36,103 nt of DNA from a virus. The stretch lies in the IMG/VR virus record IMGVR_UViG_3300045999_001935, positions 1 to 36,103 of that record. One strand, given 5' to 3'. Positions 15,042-31,964 of the stretch are shown here, one piece after another; position 1 is the first letter of the stretch, and each line of letters begins with the position of its first letter. Below the pieces are notes generated by a model. It was not told where the DNA came from and did not search any database. It worked only from the letters and a program-made list of their open reading frames with translations. The translations under genes were made by a program, and so were the position numbers.

Positions 15042-15554
15042 ATGCTAACTCTGATCTCTACTATTGGCGGTTACATCGTAGCCCTGTTCCCAAGACTTTT
15101 TGACATTCTGCAAGACCGTGCGGACAAGAAGCACGAGCTGGATATCATGCACATGCAGATGCGCCAGCAATTAGCGCTGACCGAGCGTGGCTATTCACCG
15201 GCAGATAAGACGGAAGAAGTCCGCGAGAACGATCAGCAAGATCACCAGCAGTACATGGCTCAGATGGGCATGATCTACAACAACCAGGAGAAGCTGCTGG
15301 AATCTTCTTCTCAGTGGGTCAAAGACATGACCGCGGCTACCCGCCCATTTGTCACGTTCATCTTCGTGTTTGAGCTGGTGCTGATCAACCTGCTGACGAT
15401 GTTGTGGATCTTCCTGCACGGCGACAAGGTGACATCCATCGGCGAACTGATCCAGATCATGGAGATTGTGTTCGACGCTGACGAGATGGCGCTGCTCGGC
15501 ACGATCATCGCTATGTGGTTTGGTTCCCGTGGTAACTCGAAGGCTGGCAAGTGA
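15042..15554 (+). CDS. Holin-like membrane protein (GTA-holin/3TM-type)
   Basis: 170 residues. Residues 3-22 (TLISTIGGYIVALFPRLFDI) are hydrophobic or amphipathic. Residues 28-95 form a charged helical region. Residues about 103-127 (PFVTFIFVFELVLINLLTMLW) are a membrane span, and 148-162 (EMALLGTIIAMWFGS) are a third hydrophobic helix ending in WFGSRG. This three-hydrophobic-segment layout with an RP-[FI]-[VI]-T entry and a W-F-G-x-R exit is like the GTA_holin_3TM family. It sits three bases after the previous membrane gene and close to the endolysin, as a holin should. Holin activity is inferred from family resemblance and place. Confidence 0.65.
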   Translation: MLTLISTIGGYIVALFPRLFDILQDRADKKHELDIMHMQMRQQLALTERGYSPADKTEEVRENDQQDHQQYMAQMGMIYNNQEKLLESSSQWVKDMTAATRPFVTFIFVFELVLINLLTMLWIFLHGDKVTSIGELIQIMEIVFDADEMALLGTIIAMWFGSRGNSKAGK

Positions 15555-15625
15555 TCTATCTGATCTACGCCAAGTTAGTCATCACGGTATTAACGTGCGC
15601 TTATTTCATTATTAATTTGCCATGA
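15551..15625 (+). CDS. 24-residue single-span membrane peptide between holin and endolysin
   Basis: A tiny frame starting GTG at 15551, inside a GTGA overlap with the holin-like stop, and ending TGA at 15623-15625, inside an ATGA overlap with the endolysin start. It exactly bridges the gap in its own frame. The product begins MIYLIYAKLVITVLTC and ends YFIINLP: almost the whole chain is one membrane helix with a single Lys and a Cys. Four-base overlaps on both sides are how genuine genes in this genome are joined. It could be a minimal antiholin or pinholin-like modulator, or a translation-coupling peptide. Size and the GTG start keep confidence moderate. Confidence 0.5.
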   Translation: MIYLIYAKLVITVLTCAYFIINLP

Positions 15626-16107
15626 AACTACCACTTGCCACAATTGCAATGATCAAGCACCACGAGGGTGTGAGATACAAGCCGTACAAGTGTCCGGCGA
15701 AGCTATGGACTATCGGGGTGGGGCATGTGCTTTACCCCGAGCAGGGCAAGATGCCGATTGATCAACGAGACAAGTTTGCCTTAAAGCCGGAGGACTTCCG
15801 TGTATTTAGCAAAGACGAAGTGGATACGATCCTTGAGAAAGACTTACAGCGTTTTATCGCTGGTGTTCTTCGCTACTGCCCTGACCATCTTAACGAGAAT
15901 CGCATGGGCGCGTTGGTCAGCTTTGCATTCAATGTTGGGCTAGGCACTCTTCAGAGATCTACCCTGCGGCAGAAGCATAACCGTGGCGACTTTGAGGGGG
16001 TCAAGCAGGAGTTCCTGAAATTCACGAAGGCTGGCGGCAAGGTGTTGCCGGGTCTGGTGAAGCGCCGGAACGATGAGATTTCCCTCTACTTTATGGAACC
16101 GAAATGA
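15622..16107 (+). CDS. Endolysin, GH24 lysozyme
   Basis: 161 residues, the usual size of T4-type lysozymes, which cut the MurNAc-GlcNAc bond of peptidoglycan. The catalytic-site region reads HHEGVRYKPYKCPAKLWTIG. Glu15 is the general acid, Thr30 matches T4 Thr26, and Cys24 stands where T4 has Asp20, with exactly the T4 spacing (+9 and +15). The GVGH turn follows. Residues 93-120 (NRMGALVSFAFNVGLGTL) and GLVKRRNDEISLYF match the C-terminal lobe. There is no signal or SAR sequence, so export needs a holin. It overlaps its neighbours by four bases on each side, placing it in a classic holin-endolysin-spanin order. Confidence 0.92.
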   Translation: MKLPLATIAMIKHHEGVRYKPYKCPAKLWTIGVGHVLYPEQGKMPIDQRDKFALKPEDFRVFSKDEVDTILEKDLQRFIAGVLRYCPDHLNENRMGALVSFAFNVGLGTLQRSTLRQKHNRGDFEGVKQEFLKFTKAGGKVLPGLVKRRNDEISLYFMEPK

Positions 16108-16565
16108 ATCCTTGGCTGATACTTGGCGCGGTGTTGGCTGTTGGCGCGGCGGCAGTAGGGGGATATCATACGGGCAAGGATAGTGGCATGGCAGAGGTGC
16201 AGCAAGCTTGGGATAACGAGAAGACTGCTCAGTACGCTCAGTATGCCAAGGCGATGGAAGAATCTGTGGAAGCGCAGCAGCAGCTTCAGATGGGCGCGGA
16301 CAAATTAAGACAGGAGAAGGATCGTGAGATTCGGGATATTACTGCTAGGAATACCGCTCTTGCTAACAGCTTGCGCGACCGCCAAAGTCGCCCCGCCCCC
16401 AATACAAGTGCCATGCCCAGTACCGCCAGCGCTGGACCAAGTTCCTGTACCGGAAAAGACCTTTACCGAGAGGATGGCGAATTTCTTGTCAGGATCGCTA
16501 GAGAAGCAGACGAACTCCGAGCAGCCCTCAAGCAATGCTACAAACAATACGAATCGGTGAGATGA
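16104..16565 (+). CDS. Rz: Inner-membrane spanin (Rz-like)
   Basis: 153 residues. Residues 4-21 (WLILGAVLAVGAAAVGGY) form one N-terminal membrane anchor. Residues 30-100 are a long Gln/Glu/Ala/Lys-rich periplasmic coiled coil. The C-terminal part contains ARNTALANSLRDRQSRP, a Pro/Ser stretch, and a helical end with two of its Cys (SCTGKDLY, ALKQCYKQ). This is the Rz architecture. It joins the Rz1 lipoprotein across the periplasm to fuse inner and outer membranes in the last step of lysis. The Rz1 frame is embedded at 16324-16560, a known arrangement in many phages. The start overlaps the endolysin stop. Confidence 0.88.
   Translation: MNPWLILGAVLAVGAAAVGGYHTGKDSGMAEVQQAWDNEKTAQYAQYAKAMEESVEAQQQLQMGADKLRQEKDREIRDITARNTALANSLRDRQSRPAPNTSAMPSTASAGPSSCTGKDLYREDGEFLVRIAREADELRAALKQCYKQYESVR
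16324..16560 (+). CDS. Rz1: Outer-membrane spanin (Rz1-like lipoprotein), embedded in Rz
   Basis: 78 residues, wholly inside Rz in another frame. The start is GTG 16324 with AGGAG at 16313-16317, seven bases upstream. Residues 1-16 are a lipoprotein signal (MRFGILLLGIPLLLTA) and Cys17 follows in a canonical LTAC lipobox. The mature part is Pro-rich (PPPIQVPCPVPPALDQVPVP), then a short polar tail. Signal peptidase II and lipidation would place it in the outer membrane, where Pro-rich Rz1 proteins bind Rz. This pair is the strongest evidence that the host has an outer membrane. Confidence 0.88.
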   Translation: MRFGILLLGIPLLLTACATAKVAPPPIQVPCPVPPALDQVPVPEKTFTERMANFLSGSLEKQTNSEQPSSNATNNTNR

Positions 16566-25730: not shown

Positions 25731-28700
25731 ATGCCTCAACCATGGGAAAGAGATTGGTCTGGCAAGACTGGTGGCGCTCCGTGGGAGCGTCAGTGGGATG
25801 TAACTAAACCAGAACCCAGCAAAGAACGCACGTTCGGCGAGGCTGCAACTGACGTTTATGCCGGCCTGAAAGGCGGCGTCGGTTCTCTGCTGCAACTACC
25901 AACACAGCTTGCTGGTGTAGTGGGTGGTGCGTATGAGAAGCCGGGCGAAGAGACTGGCCTATCAGCGATTGGCAAAGAGCTTCGTGAAGAAGCAGAGGCG
26001 ATGAAGTCTCCAGGGCTGAAAGCCCGTGAGGCTAGTCGTGCAGCTAAGATTGCAGAGGCAGAGAAGAAGGGGCAGCTGGATGCCTTCTTTACCGCCTTCT
26101 CAGAGACGATCAGAGATCCTGGTCTGCTGACCAACTTCCTAGCAGAGCAAGCACCACAGCTTATTCCTTCTCTCGGGGCGGCCAGACTGGTTGCTCCGCT
26201 GGCTGGCACGTCGGCTGCGGTCAGAGCGGCAGTAGGTACAGGCGCAGTCCAGCAAGGCGCGGATATCGCGGCTGGCACGTACGAGCAGGTCTATAAAGAA
26301 CTTACAAAGCAGGGCGTATCCGAGACAGAAGCGGCTGGTCAGGCGCTGGGATTGGCACGTCTAAACGGCGTTGGGGCGGTGGGCTTATCTATCTTGGCAC
26401 AGAGACTGCCGGGCGCGCGATCTTTGGAAGAAGCATTTGCCGGCAAGAAGGGTGATCTTGGCCGGATCCTTGGTGGTGTCAAAGGTGCGCTTGGCGAGAG
26501 CGTTAGTGAAGTTGCAGAAGAAACGCCGGCACGATTCCTACAGAACCTTGCGATGGCGCAGGTTGCTCCTGAGACATCTCTGACGGCAGGGCTGGGTGAG
26601 ACTGCTGGCATGGCTGCGGTAGGCGGGGCTGGATTGGGTGGTGCGACAGGTCTGTTACAACGACAAGCCCGTCCGGAAGAAGCGCCTCCGGCAACTAACA
26701 TCCCATCACAATTTGCTGCCACTCCCGAGTCGGAAATGGAGCCATCAGTGGCAACGTTGCCACGGGCGTTGCCAGCACCAGAGCTAGAAACTGAGGGTGC
26801 AGGTGAGCCACCGCTGGCATTGCCTGCGCCTCCCGTCGGAGTTGCTCCACCTGTAGAGCAGGGCGTGTCGCCAGAAGCTGTTGCTTCAGAAGATGCGTTA
26901 CGCGCTCGCGCAGAAGCGCCGCCGATAACAGAAGCCGAGTTTGTTCAAGGCGAACCGTTGCCACGCCCACCAGAGCTTGCAGAGATGGAGCAAGACATGG
27001 AAGCGCTGGGCAAAGAGGTAAAACGCTTGGAGCGCGGCGAACCCGGTAAGAGTCTATGGTCAGCGATCAAAGGCAATCTCACGCCATCTGACTTAAGCGA
27101 ATTAGGGGATAAGAAATTTAGGTCGCTGCGCGCACCCAAGGGAATGAGAGGCGTATCAATCGCTGACCTGACTGCCAGCGGACAGTTAAACGACTGGCTT
27201 CCAGAGCAATATCACGGCTCACCAGATCAGCTTGAGTTTGGCCGTCTAGAAGGCGATGAACTAACCAAAGCCAAGGACGCTGAAGAGTACATCAAGAATC
27301 AACTACGCCAAGGAAATTACTTAACGCATGCAACCAATATGCGGTTGCAGCAGATCGGTGTTGAATTATCAAATATAGAAGAAGCTTACAGGGAGTACGC
27401 AGATGCAGAAACGTTCAACACCCTTGTCCAAGAAGCGATTGATGAGCAAAGAGGACTTTATGAAAGTGTTGCGGGCGCACCCGCCGAAACAGAGGCTGGA
27501 ATTACTGAGCCACCTGCGCGAGTTCTCGAACAAATTCCAGAAGAACAAGTAGAGGAAGAGTACTTCCCGGATCAGGAAGAGGTAAAGCAAAAATCACAGT
27601 CCGGCAAAACAAATCAAATACCTTATGACACCGTATCGCAGAGTGCAGAGGGTCAGCCACTACGCCGCAGTAGCGGCTCATCGGAAATTATTAACTACGC
27701 TGGGCGCATGATAGTTATGCGCAACGTAAACGGTGTGATGGTTCCGTTTTACCTTAGCACTGGCGGCGGCGGCAAGGTAGACGTTCCTGTTGGCAAGTGG
27801 TATCCATTTTTTGGCATCGGTGCTGACGGTTGGATTAATAAAACCACCGGCAAGGAGATGGTTAATTACTATGGAAGCGAGGCATTAAAACAAGCAGCCC
27901 AAGAATTGGACGCTACGATTGGAGATATTCGTAACGATTCGTCTATTCCTAGAGTTCCTGGAAAGGGCCGTCATATTGATTTTATTAATCGAGGCCTAGC
28001 GCCAGCGGAGAGCGAAAGGCCTGACACGCTTGCCAGAGTAAGAGAAAACATAAATCGTATTGTTGATGCCGTAGAAATAAAAGGCTCACTTTCCGAACAA
28101 TCTGGAAAGCTTGAAGAGCGCGAAGCTTTTGTTATCAACAAAGACAAAGAGCATGAGCGCATAGAAAAAGAGCTGACCGGCAAGACCATGCTCGAGGCAG
28201 CGCAGTGGGCGGTGGATAACGCGCCTAATCAGTTTGCTAAAGTGTTTGCGCAGAAGGTGCTGAACCGCTTGAATGGTATGGCCAAGCGCGGCATCAAGCT
28301 GGAGTTCAATGTCTACGGTGGGCAGCGCCGCCGTAAAGATATGTATCGAGCCAGAGGCAGAACGGATTTTGACTTTGGCAAAGCAGGCGAGCAGAAGCTG
28401 GTGTCGATTTCTATCAGCCTAAATGGTGCTGCTGCGCTGGATAATCAGAATGGCTACCCGCCCGGCACACGGTATATCACCGTCCTGCATGAGTTGCTTC
28501 ATGCTGCAACGGTTGGTCAGACACGCATCCTCAAAAGTTCAGATCCGATAGTAAAAGAGCTGCGCGATCTGTTTAACCAAGTTGTTAGCCACTTCAACAC
28601 CGAAGCCCGTGCTGGCCGGCTAACGCCGTTCATGGAAAAGATCTTTGCCCAAGAGATCAACGCGCTGGAATCGCCAGATGAATTGCTGGCTTGGGGTATC

Positions 28701-31700
28701 GCTGACGAGGACATGCAGCGGTTCTTGAGCGACATCAAGGTGGGCGAAAAGACCATCATGGACAAGCTTGTGGAGTTGATCCGCAAGATCCTGAATGTCA
28801 CCAAGCCATACCTGACCGCGTTAGATCAGCTGGTGCGCACAACAGAGTCTATCCTTGACGAAGATGTTGATGTCGTGGGCGACAAGATTATTGCCAAACA
28901 GTACAGCTTTGGCGTGAAGCCTGGACGCGGTGAGGCGATACAAGGTTCGCTGTTTGAGCAGTCTGGCGTAGGCAAAAAGATATCAGAGGCTGGTAAGAAG
29001 GTTGTAGAGAAGATTGAAAGCGTAGGCAAGAAGCCCGGCATCACGCCAGACCAAGGCTTTGCGCACGTTGATCCAGAGTTCTTAGAAAAGCTTGGCCCAA
29101 TCTTCGCCCCTGAAGGAAAGACGTTTGCAGACAAGATGGATACGTACAAAGACCGTACGTTCCAGCGGCTAGCGCAGGGTATTGCAGACCAGTACCGCAC
29201 CATCAAAGACTACAGCCCGCTGGCCTATATCAAAGCCCGCATGTCCAAGACTGTCGACGGCGCGTTAGAGGGGCTGACGTTCTACGGGCAGGTCAAGCTG
29301 ACAGACGGTGCGCTGGATATCAAGCCAGACACCAAGGGATTGATTGAGACACTGAAGCCAATAGGCAACGAGGTCAACAGCTTCCTAATCTGGCGGGCGA
29401 TGAGCCGCGACTCCAGCATCGTTGAAAAGTCTAAGCGCACCCAAGAAGAAATAGCTGACATCGAAAATAGAATTGAGCAGCTTTACAACTCAAAGAGCGT
29501 AGCCAACAAAGCGTTTGAAAAAGAACTTAATAGACTTATCAAAGATCAAACGTTATCCGATAAGGAAAAGCGTGAGGATATTTCAAAGTTCAAAAAGGAA
29601 ACAGACAAGTACAAGAAAGAAGTTGACCAGCAGGTTGCTGTTGAGCGGGCAACGATTGCTAGGTTAAAAGAAACAATCAAGCTTCCATCTATTAGCCCTG
29701 AAGTAGTAGAGCAAAGAGACAAGCTTGCATCTGGCAAGATCGGCAACGAGTCGAGGCTTGAGGTTTACAACCGCGTTAGCCGCGAGTTGAACAAACTGAA
29801 CCAATCGGTTCTGGATGTTGCTCTGGCAAAAGGACAGATAGACAAGCGTTCCTACGAAACCTTCTTGCAGGATGTTTACTACATCCCGTTCTACAAGATG
29901 GTGGAAGAGGGACAGGTAGCTGACATCCGTACCGCATCTGGTCTGGCCAATCAGTATTTCTCCAAGGCTTTGAAGGGTGGAGAGAAGCCGTTTGGCGATC
30001 TGATGGAAAACCTGCTGCGCAACTGGAACCATATCCTGTCTGCGTCCATGAAGAATGACGCGGCGGTAGAAACCTTGAAGGGGGCGACAGAAGCAGGCGC
30101 TGCTTACCCCAATCTCAAAGCACAGTACGACTGGCGAGATGGCAAGGTTTACAAGGGCGAGGCGATGTTGGCGGCGCAAGAGATTGATGGTGTCCAGTAC
30201 AAGGCTGGTGAGCTGCGGCCTGGCATCTTCTCCTCTGACGGCAAGGGTCTGGTCAAGGTCATGATGAATGGCTACCCTGCCTACTATGAGGTGATAGATC
30301 CTCTGCTGGTGGAATCCATCATGTCCATCGGGTACATGGGGCCGAAGTCTAAGTTCCTCGACATGGCGCGAGACTTCAAGAACATCTTGCAGTATGGCGT
30401 CACACTCAGCCCAGCGTTTAAGGTGCGCAACCTTGTGCGGGATTCCGTGCAGTCTGCCGCTGTGTCTGGCATCGGGTTGAATATTGCTAAGAACGTGACG
30501 GATGGTTTGGCTGCTAGTAAGAAGGGCAATCCTGATTACATCTCTGCACTAGCGGGCGGCGCGATCTTTAACTTTGGTTCCTCGATGGAAGGGGATCAGG
30601 CCAGACTGGTGAAGCGATTAATCCAGAATGGCGTGAGCGGCGAAAACATCCTGAACACTGAGTCCAAGATCAAGAACGGGCTGAAGAAGATGTACGACGC
30701 CTATCAAGAGTTGGGCAACCGTTCAGAAGCGGCCAACCGTATGGCGCTGTACAAGCAGCTGCGGGCAAAAGGTCTAAGCCATCTCGAGGCTTCCTTCCAA
30801 GCGCGTGATCTGTTGGACTTCTCTATGCAGGGCGCGTGGCCAGCGGTGCGTCTGGTGACACAGGTGATCCCGTTCTTGAATGCCCGTGTGCAAGGCCTGT
30901 ATAAACTTGGCCGTGACGGCATCATCCCTACTAGCCGGGTGTTGTACAACTCTGTCACTGGTAAGGAAAGCGACCTCACCGACAAGCAGAAAGCCCAGCA
31001 GTTCTCGATCGTCACCGGTGCTGTGGTGTTGGCGTCCTTGATGCTGTACATGGCATTCAAAGATGATGATGAGTACAAGAAGCGCGAGCAGTGGGACCGT
31101 GACAACTTCTGGTGGTTCCGCCTGCCGGGCATGGATTCAGCTGTGCGGATTCCTAAACCGTTTGAGATCGGTGCGTTTGGCACACTGGCCGAGCGTATTG
31201 CTGAACAGATGTTTGACGAAGGCGCAGAGGGCCGGGTGCTTGAGCAGAGCATGAAGCGTATGCTGACTGACACGTTTGCTATCAACCCGATCCCGCAGAT
31301 GATCAAGCCGCTGGTGGACTTGTACGCTAACAAGGACAGCTTCACGGGTGCGCCGATTGAGACTGCCGGCATGGAGCGTCTGTCTAAGGCAGAGCGTGTA
31401 GCTACAAACACTAGCCCGCTGGCAAAGGTGCTGAGTCAGGTAGCTAACGTCTTCCTGCCAGAAGCCACAGAGGTATCTCCAGTACAGACAGACTATGCGA
31501 TCAAAGCGTATCTGGGCTGGATGGGGGCAACGATTACCGCAACATCACACTACGCGGTAATGCCGTTCTCGAAGAGTGCCTACCCTGACCACAACTGGCA
31601 GGACACAATCTCGCTAGGATTTGTGAAGTCTCTGCCAGCCAATCAGTCTGGCTACGTCACCAGCTTCTACGAGAACATGAAGATCGTCGAGCAGGCGTAT

Positions 31701-31964
31701 GCGGATATGCGTCACTACGCCGAGCTGGGTCAGTCTGATAAGGTGCAACAGATTCTGGAAGAGAAGGGCGACAAGATCCAGCTGGCCAAGTTCTACGACA
31801 AGACCAGCAAGGACATGTCAAAGATCCGGCAGGCGATCCAGGTTATCAAGAACGATGAGACGATGGACGGCGCTCAGAAGAAGGAAGAGATTGACCGCTT
31901 GAAGCAGTTGATTGGTGACCTGGCCAAGCAGGCAGAGGATGTGCGGAAGTCACTCCGCAAGTGA
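25731..31964 (+). CDS. Giant polyvalent ejection protein with zinc-protease motif and LPD38-like domain
   Basis: 2077 residues. The N-terminus is PWERDWSGKTGGAPWERQW. Residues 40-300 are Gly/Ala-rich helices (SLLQLPTQLAGVVGGAYE, GVGAVGLSILAQRLPG). Residues 310-400 are a Pro/Glu linker. Residues 430-780 hold mixed small domains. Residues 860-970 form a metallopeptidase-like region with HELLH at 920-924, giving two His ligands and a catalytic Glu. Residues about 1345-1760 resemble LPD38 of polyvalent proteins: YIPFYKMVEEG, GVTLSPAFKVRNLVRDSVQS, RDLLDFSMQGAWPAVRLVTQ. A membrane span lies near 1758-1778. Polyvalent proteins enter the cell with phage or plasmid DNA. It probably plays the part of T7 gp16, but no transglycosylase motif is visible. 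Confidence 0.75.
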   Translation: MPQPWERDWSGKTGGAPWERQWDVTKPEPSKERTFGEAATDVYAGLKGGVGSLLQLPTQLAGVVGGAYEKPGEETGLSAIGKELREEAEAMKSPGLKAREASRAAKIAEAEKKGQLDAFFTAFSETIRDPGLLTNFLAEQAPQLIPSLGAARLVAPLAGTSAAVRAAVGTGAVQQGADIAAGTYEQVYKELTKQGVSETEAAGQALGLARLNGVGAVGLSILAQRLPGARSLEEAFAGKKGDLGRILGGVKGALGESVSEVAEETPARFLQNLAMAQVAPETSLTAGLGETAGMAAVGGAGLGGATGLLQRQARPEEAPPATNIPSQFAATPESEMEPSVATLPRALPAPELETEGAGEPPLALPAPPVGVAPPVEQGVSPEAVASEDALRARAEAPPITEAEFVQGEPLPRPPELAEMEQDMEALGKEVKRLERGEPGKSLWSAIKGNLTPSDLSELGDKKFRSLRAPKGMRGVSIADLTASGQLNDWLPEQYHGSPDQLEFGRLEGDELTKAKDAEEYIKNQLRQGNYLTHATNMRLQQIGVELSNIEEAYREYADAETFNTLVQEAIDEQRGLYESVAGAPAETEAGITEPPARVLEQIPEEQVEEEYFPDQEEVKQKSQSGKTNQIPYDTVSQSAEGQPLRRSSGSSEIINYAGRMIVMRNVNGVMVPFYLSTGGGGKVDVPVGKWYPFFGIGADGWINKTTGKEMVNYYGSEALKQAAQELDATIGDIRNDSSIPRVPGKGRHIDFINRGLAPAESERPDTLARVRENINRIVDAVEIKGSLSEQSGKLEEREAFVINKDKEHERIEKELTGKTMLEAAQWAVDNAPNQFAKVFAQKVLNRLNGMAKRGIKLEFNVYGGQRRRKDMYRARGRTDFDFGKAGEQKLVSISISLNGAAALDNQNGYPPGTRYITVLHELLHAATVGQTRILKSSDPIVKELRDLFNQVVSHFNTEARAGRLTPFMEKIFAQEINALESPDELLAWGIADEDMQRFLSDIKVGEKTIMDKLVELIRKILNVTKPYLTALDQLVRTTESILDEDVDVVGDKIIAKQYSFGVKPGRGEAIQGSLFEQSGVGKKISEAGKKVVEKIESVGKKPGITPDQGFAHVDPEFLEKLGPIFAPEGKTFADKMDTYKDRTFQRLAQGIADQYRTIKDYSPLAYIKARMSKTVDGALEGLTFYGQVKLTDGALDIKPDTKGLIETLKPIGNEVNSFLIWRAMSRDSSIVEKSKRTQEEIADIENRIEQLYNSKSVANKAFEKELNRLIKDQTLSDKEKREDISKFKKETDKYKKEVDQQVAVERATIARLKETIKLPSISPEVVEQRDKLASGKIGNESRLEVYNRVSRELNKLNQSVLDVALAKGQIDKRSYETFLQDVYYIPFYKMVEEGQVADIRTASGLANQYFSKALKGGEKPFGDLMENLLRNWNHILSASMKNDAAVETLKGATEAGAAYPNLKAQYDWRDGKVYKGEAMLAAQEIDGVQYKAGELRPGIFSSDGKGLVKVMMNGYPAYYEVIDPLLVESIMSIGYMGPKSKFLDMARDFKNILQYGVTLSPAFKVRNLVRDSVQSAAVSGIGLNIAKNVTDGLAASKKGNPDYISALAGGAIFNFGSSMEGDQARLVKRLIQNGVSGENILNTESKIKNGLKKMYDAYQELGNRSEAANRMALYKQLRAKGLSHLEASFQARDLLDFSMQGAWPAVRLVTQVIPFLNARVQGLYKLGRDGIIPTSRVLYNSVTGKESDLTDKQKAQQFSIVTGAVVLASLMLYMAFKDDDEYKKREQWDRDNFWWFRLPGMDSAVRIPKPFEIGAFGTLAERIAEQMFDEGAEGRVLEQSMKRMLTDTFAINPIPQMIKPLVDLYANKDSFTGAPIETAGMERLSKAERVATNTSPLAKVLSQVANVFLPEATEVSPVQTDYAIKAYLGWMGATITATSHYAVMPFSKSAYPDHNWQDTISLGFVKSLPANQSGYVTSFYENMKIVEQAYADMRHYAELGQSDKVQQILEEKGDKIQLAKFYDKTSKDMSKIRQAIQVIKNDETMDGAQKKEEIDRLKQLIGDLAKQAEDVRKSLRK

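Follow-up and report, generated by a model that had tools for sequence, protein, structure and literature searches.

Between a holin-like gene and the endolysin gene of a viral contig (IMG/VR record IMGVR_UViG_3300045999_001935), a frame of 24 codons is fitted so tightly that it overlaps both neighbours. This arrangement raises the question of whether so short a frame is a gene and, if it is, what its product contributes to lysis. The window analysed is the whole stretch of 36,103 nucleotides, and all features of the cassette described here are encoded on the plus strand.

The frame (15551 to 15625; VIYLIYAKLVITVLTCAYFIINLP) starts with GTG at 15551 and ends with TGA at 15623 to 15625. The TGA of the holin-like gene occupies 15552 to 15554 and the ATG of the endolysin begins at 15622, giving a GTGA stop-start overlap upstream (15551 to 15554) and an ATGA overlap downstream (15622 to 15625). 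Both overlaps had been noted in an earlier, sequence-only reading of this DNA and were found at exactly these positions. The further point of that reading, that the frame is joined in the way of the certain genes of the operon, holds as well: the endolysin/Rz junction has the same ATGA overlap.

The holin-like gene (15042 to 15554, 170 amino acids) matches phrog_6637. The "holin" profile phrog_3427 is matched by seven of 24 holin-like members (best E-value 4e-4), and the Pfam family GTA_holin_3TM (PF11351) was matched weakly by two of eight relatives (E about 0.1), none of them above the curated cut-off. The structure model of the protein is too poor (mean pLDDT 57) to add to this assignment. 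The gene appears holin-like by profile, position and several hydrophobic segments, the profile matches being weak. The endolysin (15622 to 16107, 161 amino acids) is a Phage_lysozyme (E 9e-37, domain covering residues 12 to 152) without SAR or signal segment. It is followed by an Rz-like inner-membrane spanin (DUF2514, 16104 to 16565), and wholly inside the Rz-like gene, in another frame, lies an Rz1-like outer-membrane spanin lipoprotein (16324 to 16560), assigned by weak profile matches and a lipobox, LLLTAC, read directly. Just upstream of the holin-like gene, P0004 (14733 to 15038) encodes a protein of 101 amino acids with one transmembrane segment and a charged C-terminal helix. It has weak matches only, and nearly all of the close relatives that were examined carry it, whether or not they have the peptide. 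Elsewhere in the window, 25731 to 31964 form a single frame of 2077 amino acids, which is unusually large for a 36-kb phage contig.

Coding evidence for the 24-codon frame

The single sequence proves little about the frame, since 35% of composition-matched 67-nt spacers are also open in the peptide frame. No match was found in Pfam or PHROGs, a search with little power at 24 residues, nor in named phage records by tblastn (E 10), which is weak evidence with so short a query. The IMG/VR collection was compared at the level of the locus: several hundred loci were collected with the lysozyme, the holin-like protein, two distant holins and an alignment of holins as queries, and near-duplicate contigs were merged by identical holin and junction sequence. 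The best 80 loci per scan were considered, which makes frequencies beyond the close clade approximate.

A homologue of the peptide with 24 to 25 codons was found in 49 distinct loci, without indels or stops. The upstream overlap is GTGA or ATGA and the downstream overlap is ATGA in 49 of 49. The closest clade contributes 24 distinct DNA versions and the distant clades contribute 13, all with 24 or 25 codons and all ending in ATGA; among the distant 25-codon members are MIYALYARMAFTVAASVYMILHLPR, MIYLIYTKMALTLLISGYLILNLPK and MIYVIYFRMLVTLIASVYLILHLSK. The frame is intact in every one of these versions. Stops or frameshifts in relatives that keep both neighbours, which would speak against a gene, were not seen, the interval being either intact or wholly absent.

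Purifying selection was detected in the proposed frame alone. In the close clade dN/dS is 0.15 (bootstrap 0.05 to 0.32, 24 DNA versions), compared to 1.06 and 2.2 when the two alternative frames are read. In the distant clades it is 0.14 (0.08 to 0.33, 13 DNA versions), compared to 0.74 and 0.98, and the other two frames contain stops in every sequence. With dN/dS values of 0.04 for both the holin-like gene and the lysozyme, the peptide is constrained less tightly than its neighbours. Across 28 distinct peptides, I2, Y3, Y6, T12, Y18 and L23 are invariant, and R/K8, C/S16, I20 and P24 nearly so, giving the family pattern M/V-I-Y-x-[IVL]-Y-x-[RK]-x3-T-[VLM]-x2-[CS]-x-Y-x-[IV]-x-[NHY]-L-P. The invariant residues hold across clades with a holin identity of only about 35%. 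Periodicity of conservation along a helical face was not significant (p 0.15).

The sequence-only reading had described nearly the whole peptide as one hydrophobic helix. On the Kyte-Doolittle scale this is broadly correct (mean 1.87, best 19-residue window 1.97), with the qualification that residue 8 is a conserved Lys or Arg and that polar residues close to the C-terminus are conserved too. Some distant members are borderline in hydrophobicity for a full transmembrane span (best 19-mer 1.4).

Judged from the substitution pattern, 15551 to 15625 is a real protein-coding gene, and there is strong support, from the conserved frame and the purifying selection acting on it, for the proposal that the lysis cassette includes it as a genuine, coupled gene for a membrane peptide. 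A chance frame, which the window sequence taken singly would have allowed, is ruled out by dN/dS and the invariant residues. Several other candidates were rejected. A structured RNA element does not fit z-scores of -1.1 to 0.8, compensatory change in two of 17 pairs and the lack of an Rfam match. For a fusion of holin and peptide by -1 frameshifting, the window clade reads C AAG TGA, which from its sequence is no slippery site. A fusion to the endolysin does not fit either, since the peptide is read in a different frame and has a separate stop. A remnant of a GIY-YIG gene was considered as well, since such a gene in one relative (L052) starts with MTYAVY at the same place; it is unlikely, as the peptide keeps a constant length of 24 to 25 codons and, in several clades, a conserved sequence of its own.

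To examine the association with the holin, 2.9 million viral contigs were searched with a nucleotide pattern of the peptide only (RTG ATH TAY ... TAY NTN ATH), whatever its neighbours. The pattern demands M/V-I-Y...Y...R/K...Y..I, so more divergent peptides would escape. It returned 108 stretches. Every 24- to 25-residue peptide of this type among them immediately follows the stop codon of a gene of the same holin family and ends in ATGA; the remaining matches are short or unrelated frames. The hydrophobic peptide is linked in this way to one holin-like family throughout, a trait shared with antiholins, which are phage membrane or periplasmic proteins tied to a holin. Within the record of the window itself, the N-terminal pattern of the peptide has one match, at the 15551 site.

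Presence, absence and other occupants of the junction

In the close clade (holins 87 to 99% identical) the junction is, with two exceptions, either a direct ATGA overlap of holin and lysozyme or exactly 71 nt with the 24-codon frame. Contigs selected by the holin alone contained the peptide in 32 cases, an empty junction in 37 and larger inserts in two; in about half of the close relatives the peptide is exactly absent and the holin stop overlaps the endolysin start. Four sets of identical holin proteins occur both with and without the peptide. Two loci (L226 and L376) have the same DNA for 100 nt to the left and right of the junction; what sets them apart there is 74 nt with an AAAATGA repeat at either end. 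In the distant clades, with holins about 30 to 40% identical to that of the window, most junctions are empty among the loci listed. A coupled junction can thus gain or lose a cistron with its neighbours undisturbed, and the half-and-half polymorphism of the close clade raises the question of whether selection on lysis timing fluctuates in nature.

The state of the junction was mapped onto gene trees. In the close clade, the holin DNA tree requires at least 13 state changes, nine of them forced by well-supported branches (18.4 when states are shuffled), and the lysozyme tree five, two of them forced (shuffled 17.6). For the whole family, no fewer than 11 changes follow from well-supported branches of the holin tree. 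In matched sets of 43 loci, six changes were counted for Rz, seven to nine for the lysozyme and eight for P0004, compared to 11 to 13 for the holin (shuffled about 14.5) and 11 to 12 for DNA further upstream (shuffled about 13.3). The change counts are compatible with gain or loss. Since homologues occur in clades with about 35% holin identity, the distribution suggests an old cistron that was repeatedly lost. Recombination would both remove and restore this optional cistron, in part at the short overlap repeats that contain TGA.

The simplest reason for the better fit to the Rz, lysozyme and P0004 trees would be recombination around the holin. The same fit may reflect a functional tie of the peptide to the lysozyme, Rz or P0004, and it is the main point in favour of a peptide that serves the endolysin, a spanin or P0004, for example as a releasin-like helper, rather than the holin. 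Such a partnership is quite improbable. A releasin would find no SAR domain in this endolysin, and the same endolysin family works without the peptide. Moreover, a frame of 217 amino acids, or a cut part of it, takes the usual place of the lysozyme behind the peptide in six loci (L303, L315, L319, L323, L324 and L336); in L323 the order is peptide, 217-amino-acid frame, lysozyme. The peptide thereby keeps its place beside the holin.

The 217-amino-acid (or shorter, cut) frame, MKTFVVRPELMFVGQVHGKK..., has no Pfam match and precedes the lysozyme in these six loci and in L477, where a relative is located at the junction and the 24-codon frame is lacking. GIY-YIG homing endonuclease genes are found at the same junction in L052 (2469 to 2999) and L077 (429 to 905), both confirmed by Pfam (for L052, GIY-YIG 6e-7 and NUMOD3 7e-8), and by similar sequence in L471, L474, L483 and L507; they are joined to the holin by ATGA-type coupling. 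Further occupants are coupled frames of 51 amino acids (MIWTLVL...; L243, L252 and L258), of 61 amino acids with lipoprotein-like character (L188 and L527) and of 48 amino acids (MIKDYSD or MMKDYSD...; L253 and L460). These three small frames are unrelated and gave no Pfam match where tested. In two loci, L451 and L457, whose holin is very close to the peptide-bearing ones, the holin gene ends in TAA and is followed by a spacer of 104 nt that contains no coupled frame, which makes this a junction of a different, uncoupled kind. For small optional cistrons, the holin/lysozyme junction is a hot spot.

From the homing endonuclease genes and the several unrelated small coupled frames, the peptide might be regarded as one more accessory insert without a role in lysis, acting in host or superinfection interactions or occupying a site attacked by homing endonucleases. 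This is very improbable for a peptide that is conserved as a protein and occurs at one junction only, beside one holin family.

Translation signals at the junction

An AAGG Shine-Dalgarno-like site lies inside the holin-like gene (15540 to 15543), 7 nt before the peptide start, and in relatives without the peptide the matching region precedes the endolysin start. The 20 nt before the endolysin start (15602 to 15621) contain no Shine-Dalgarno site when the peptide is present. Duplex energies with the 16S tail were calculated with ViennaRNA, using a general bacterial anti-Shine-Dalgarno tail that may not be that of the host. Where the peptide is absent, the endolysin has mean energies of -6.7 (close clade) and -7.9 kcal/mol (distant clades). 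Where it is present, the peptide has -5.5 and -7.0 kcal/mol, and the endolysin just -1.7 and -0.5 kcal/mol, respectively. The ribosome-binding site that the endolysin has in phages without the peptide is thus taken up by the peptide, and the endolysin is left with none of its own. Translation of the peptide is strongly implied, since the endolysin behind it loses its own site. The endolysin, if it is needed, is probably reached by termination-reinitiation through the peptide, to judge from these signals, and the cistron, to which the site of the endolysin is given over, would also alter endolysin translation.

These observations could be taken to mean that the frame is a translational throttle: by seizing the ribosome-binding site it would make endolysin synthesis dependent on reinitiation, and the peptide would be incidental. 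The loss of the endolysin site with the frame in both clades and the exact GTGA/ATGA coupling everywhere are what a throttle predicts. However, the residues are conserved and not the frame alone (dN/dS 0.15, six invariant residues across clades), and no conserved RNA structure was detected. Because the residues are conserved, a pure throttle is unlikely as the whole story; a throttle effect probably accompanies the peptide.

A putative role in lysis timing

A lysis-timing or antiholin-like role fits the evidence. The preferred reading, to which a probability of about one half is given, is that of an optional membrane peptide with a single helix, whose synthesis keeps pace with that of holin and endolysin and which modulates the holin and the timing of lysis. 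The peptide would insert into the inner membrane at a constant ratio to the holin and would modulate assembly or triggering of the latter, so that carriers would differ from kin lacking it in the time of lysis or in the holin:endolysin ratio. Of the two predicted effects, antiholin action is given a slight preference over acceleration. Several points speak against this reading. The state of the junction tracks the endolysin, Rz and P0004 trees better than the holin tree and so does not mark out the holin as the partner, holins of identical sequence occur in both states, and the holin assignment itself is based on weak profile matches and gene order.

Acceleration is part of another explanation, according to which a small depolarising peptide, like type I toxins or pinholins, hastens holin triggering by lowering the membrane potential. 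Holins trigger when the membrane potential collapses, and the size, the hydrophobicity and the one conserved basic residue of the peptide suit such an activity. It is nevertheless rather unlikely, as early depolarisation would cut the burst and such a peptide alone cannot release this endolysin, which has no SAR segment.

Phage 21-type pinholins have two transmembrane segments and work with SAR endolysins. They resemble the peptide as small hydrophobic lysis peptides; here, however, there is one short helix, 24 residues leaving room for no second one, and the N-terminus of the lysozyme has neither a signal nor a SAR segment. Lacking these, the endolysin needs large holes, and a pinholin acting alone is unlikely. 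The pinholin-like peptide offered in the sequence-only reading is disfavoured by this full-length Phage_lysozyme and by the many near-identical phages that do without the peptide.

The antiholins S107 of lambda and S71 of phage 21 are longer, dual-start forms of the holin itself. They share with the preferred reading the control of lysis timing from the holin locus in a fixed ratio, whereas the peptide is a separate coupled cistron in another frame. Ibs, ShoB and TisB, small hydrophobic type I toxin peptides, are similar in size class and hydrophobic character and differ in being encoded in chromosomal toxin-antitoxin loci. Accessory lysis regulators of 60 to 100 residues are known; a conserved regulator of 24 residues would be near the lower size limit for a gene and easily missed by annotation. 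ORF52 of phage BSPM4, a single-transmembrane antiholin of 64 amino acids, binds and restrains a holin (PMC11657625). Like the peptide it is a very small membrane protein of a phage with one helix, and it is reported to adjust the timing of the holin, but it is longer than the 24-residue peptide and is encoded away from the cassette. Pfam and PHROG profiles gave no sequence relation of the peptide to a described antiholin family, with little power at this length. The releasin gp25 of phage Mu (DUF2730; 99 amino acids, one transmembrane segment, a cytoplasmic domain) acts on SAR endolysins (PMC9239132). It is an accessory single-transmembrane lysis protein, as is proposed for the peptide, the cytoplasmic domain and the SAR endolysin target being features of the Mu protein; the peptide, with 24 amino acids, no Pfam match and a non-SAR endolysin beside it, does not have the characteristics of a Mu-type releasin.

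A more far-reaching possibility, held only tentatively, is that this ultra-short cistron is switched by exchange of the whole cistron at the overlap repeats, which would reset holin behaviour and endolysin translation together and amount to a phase-variation-like polymorphism of lysis timing in environmental phages. Since near-identical phages exist with and without the peptide, an effect on lysis timing is testable by a single clean comparison.
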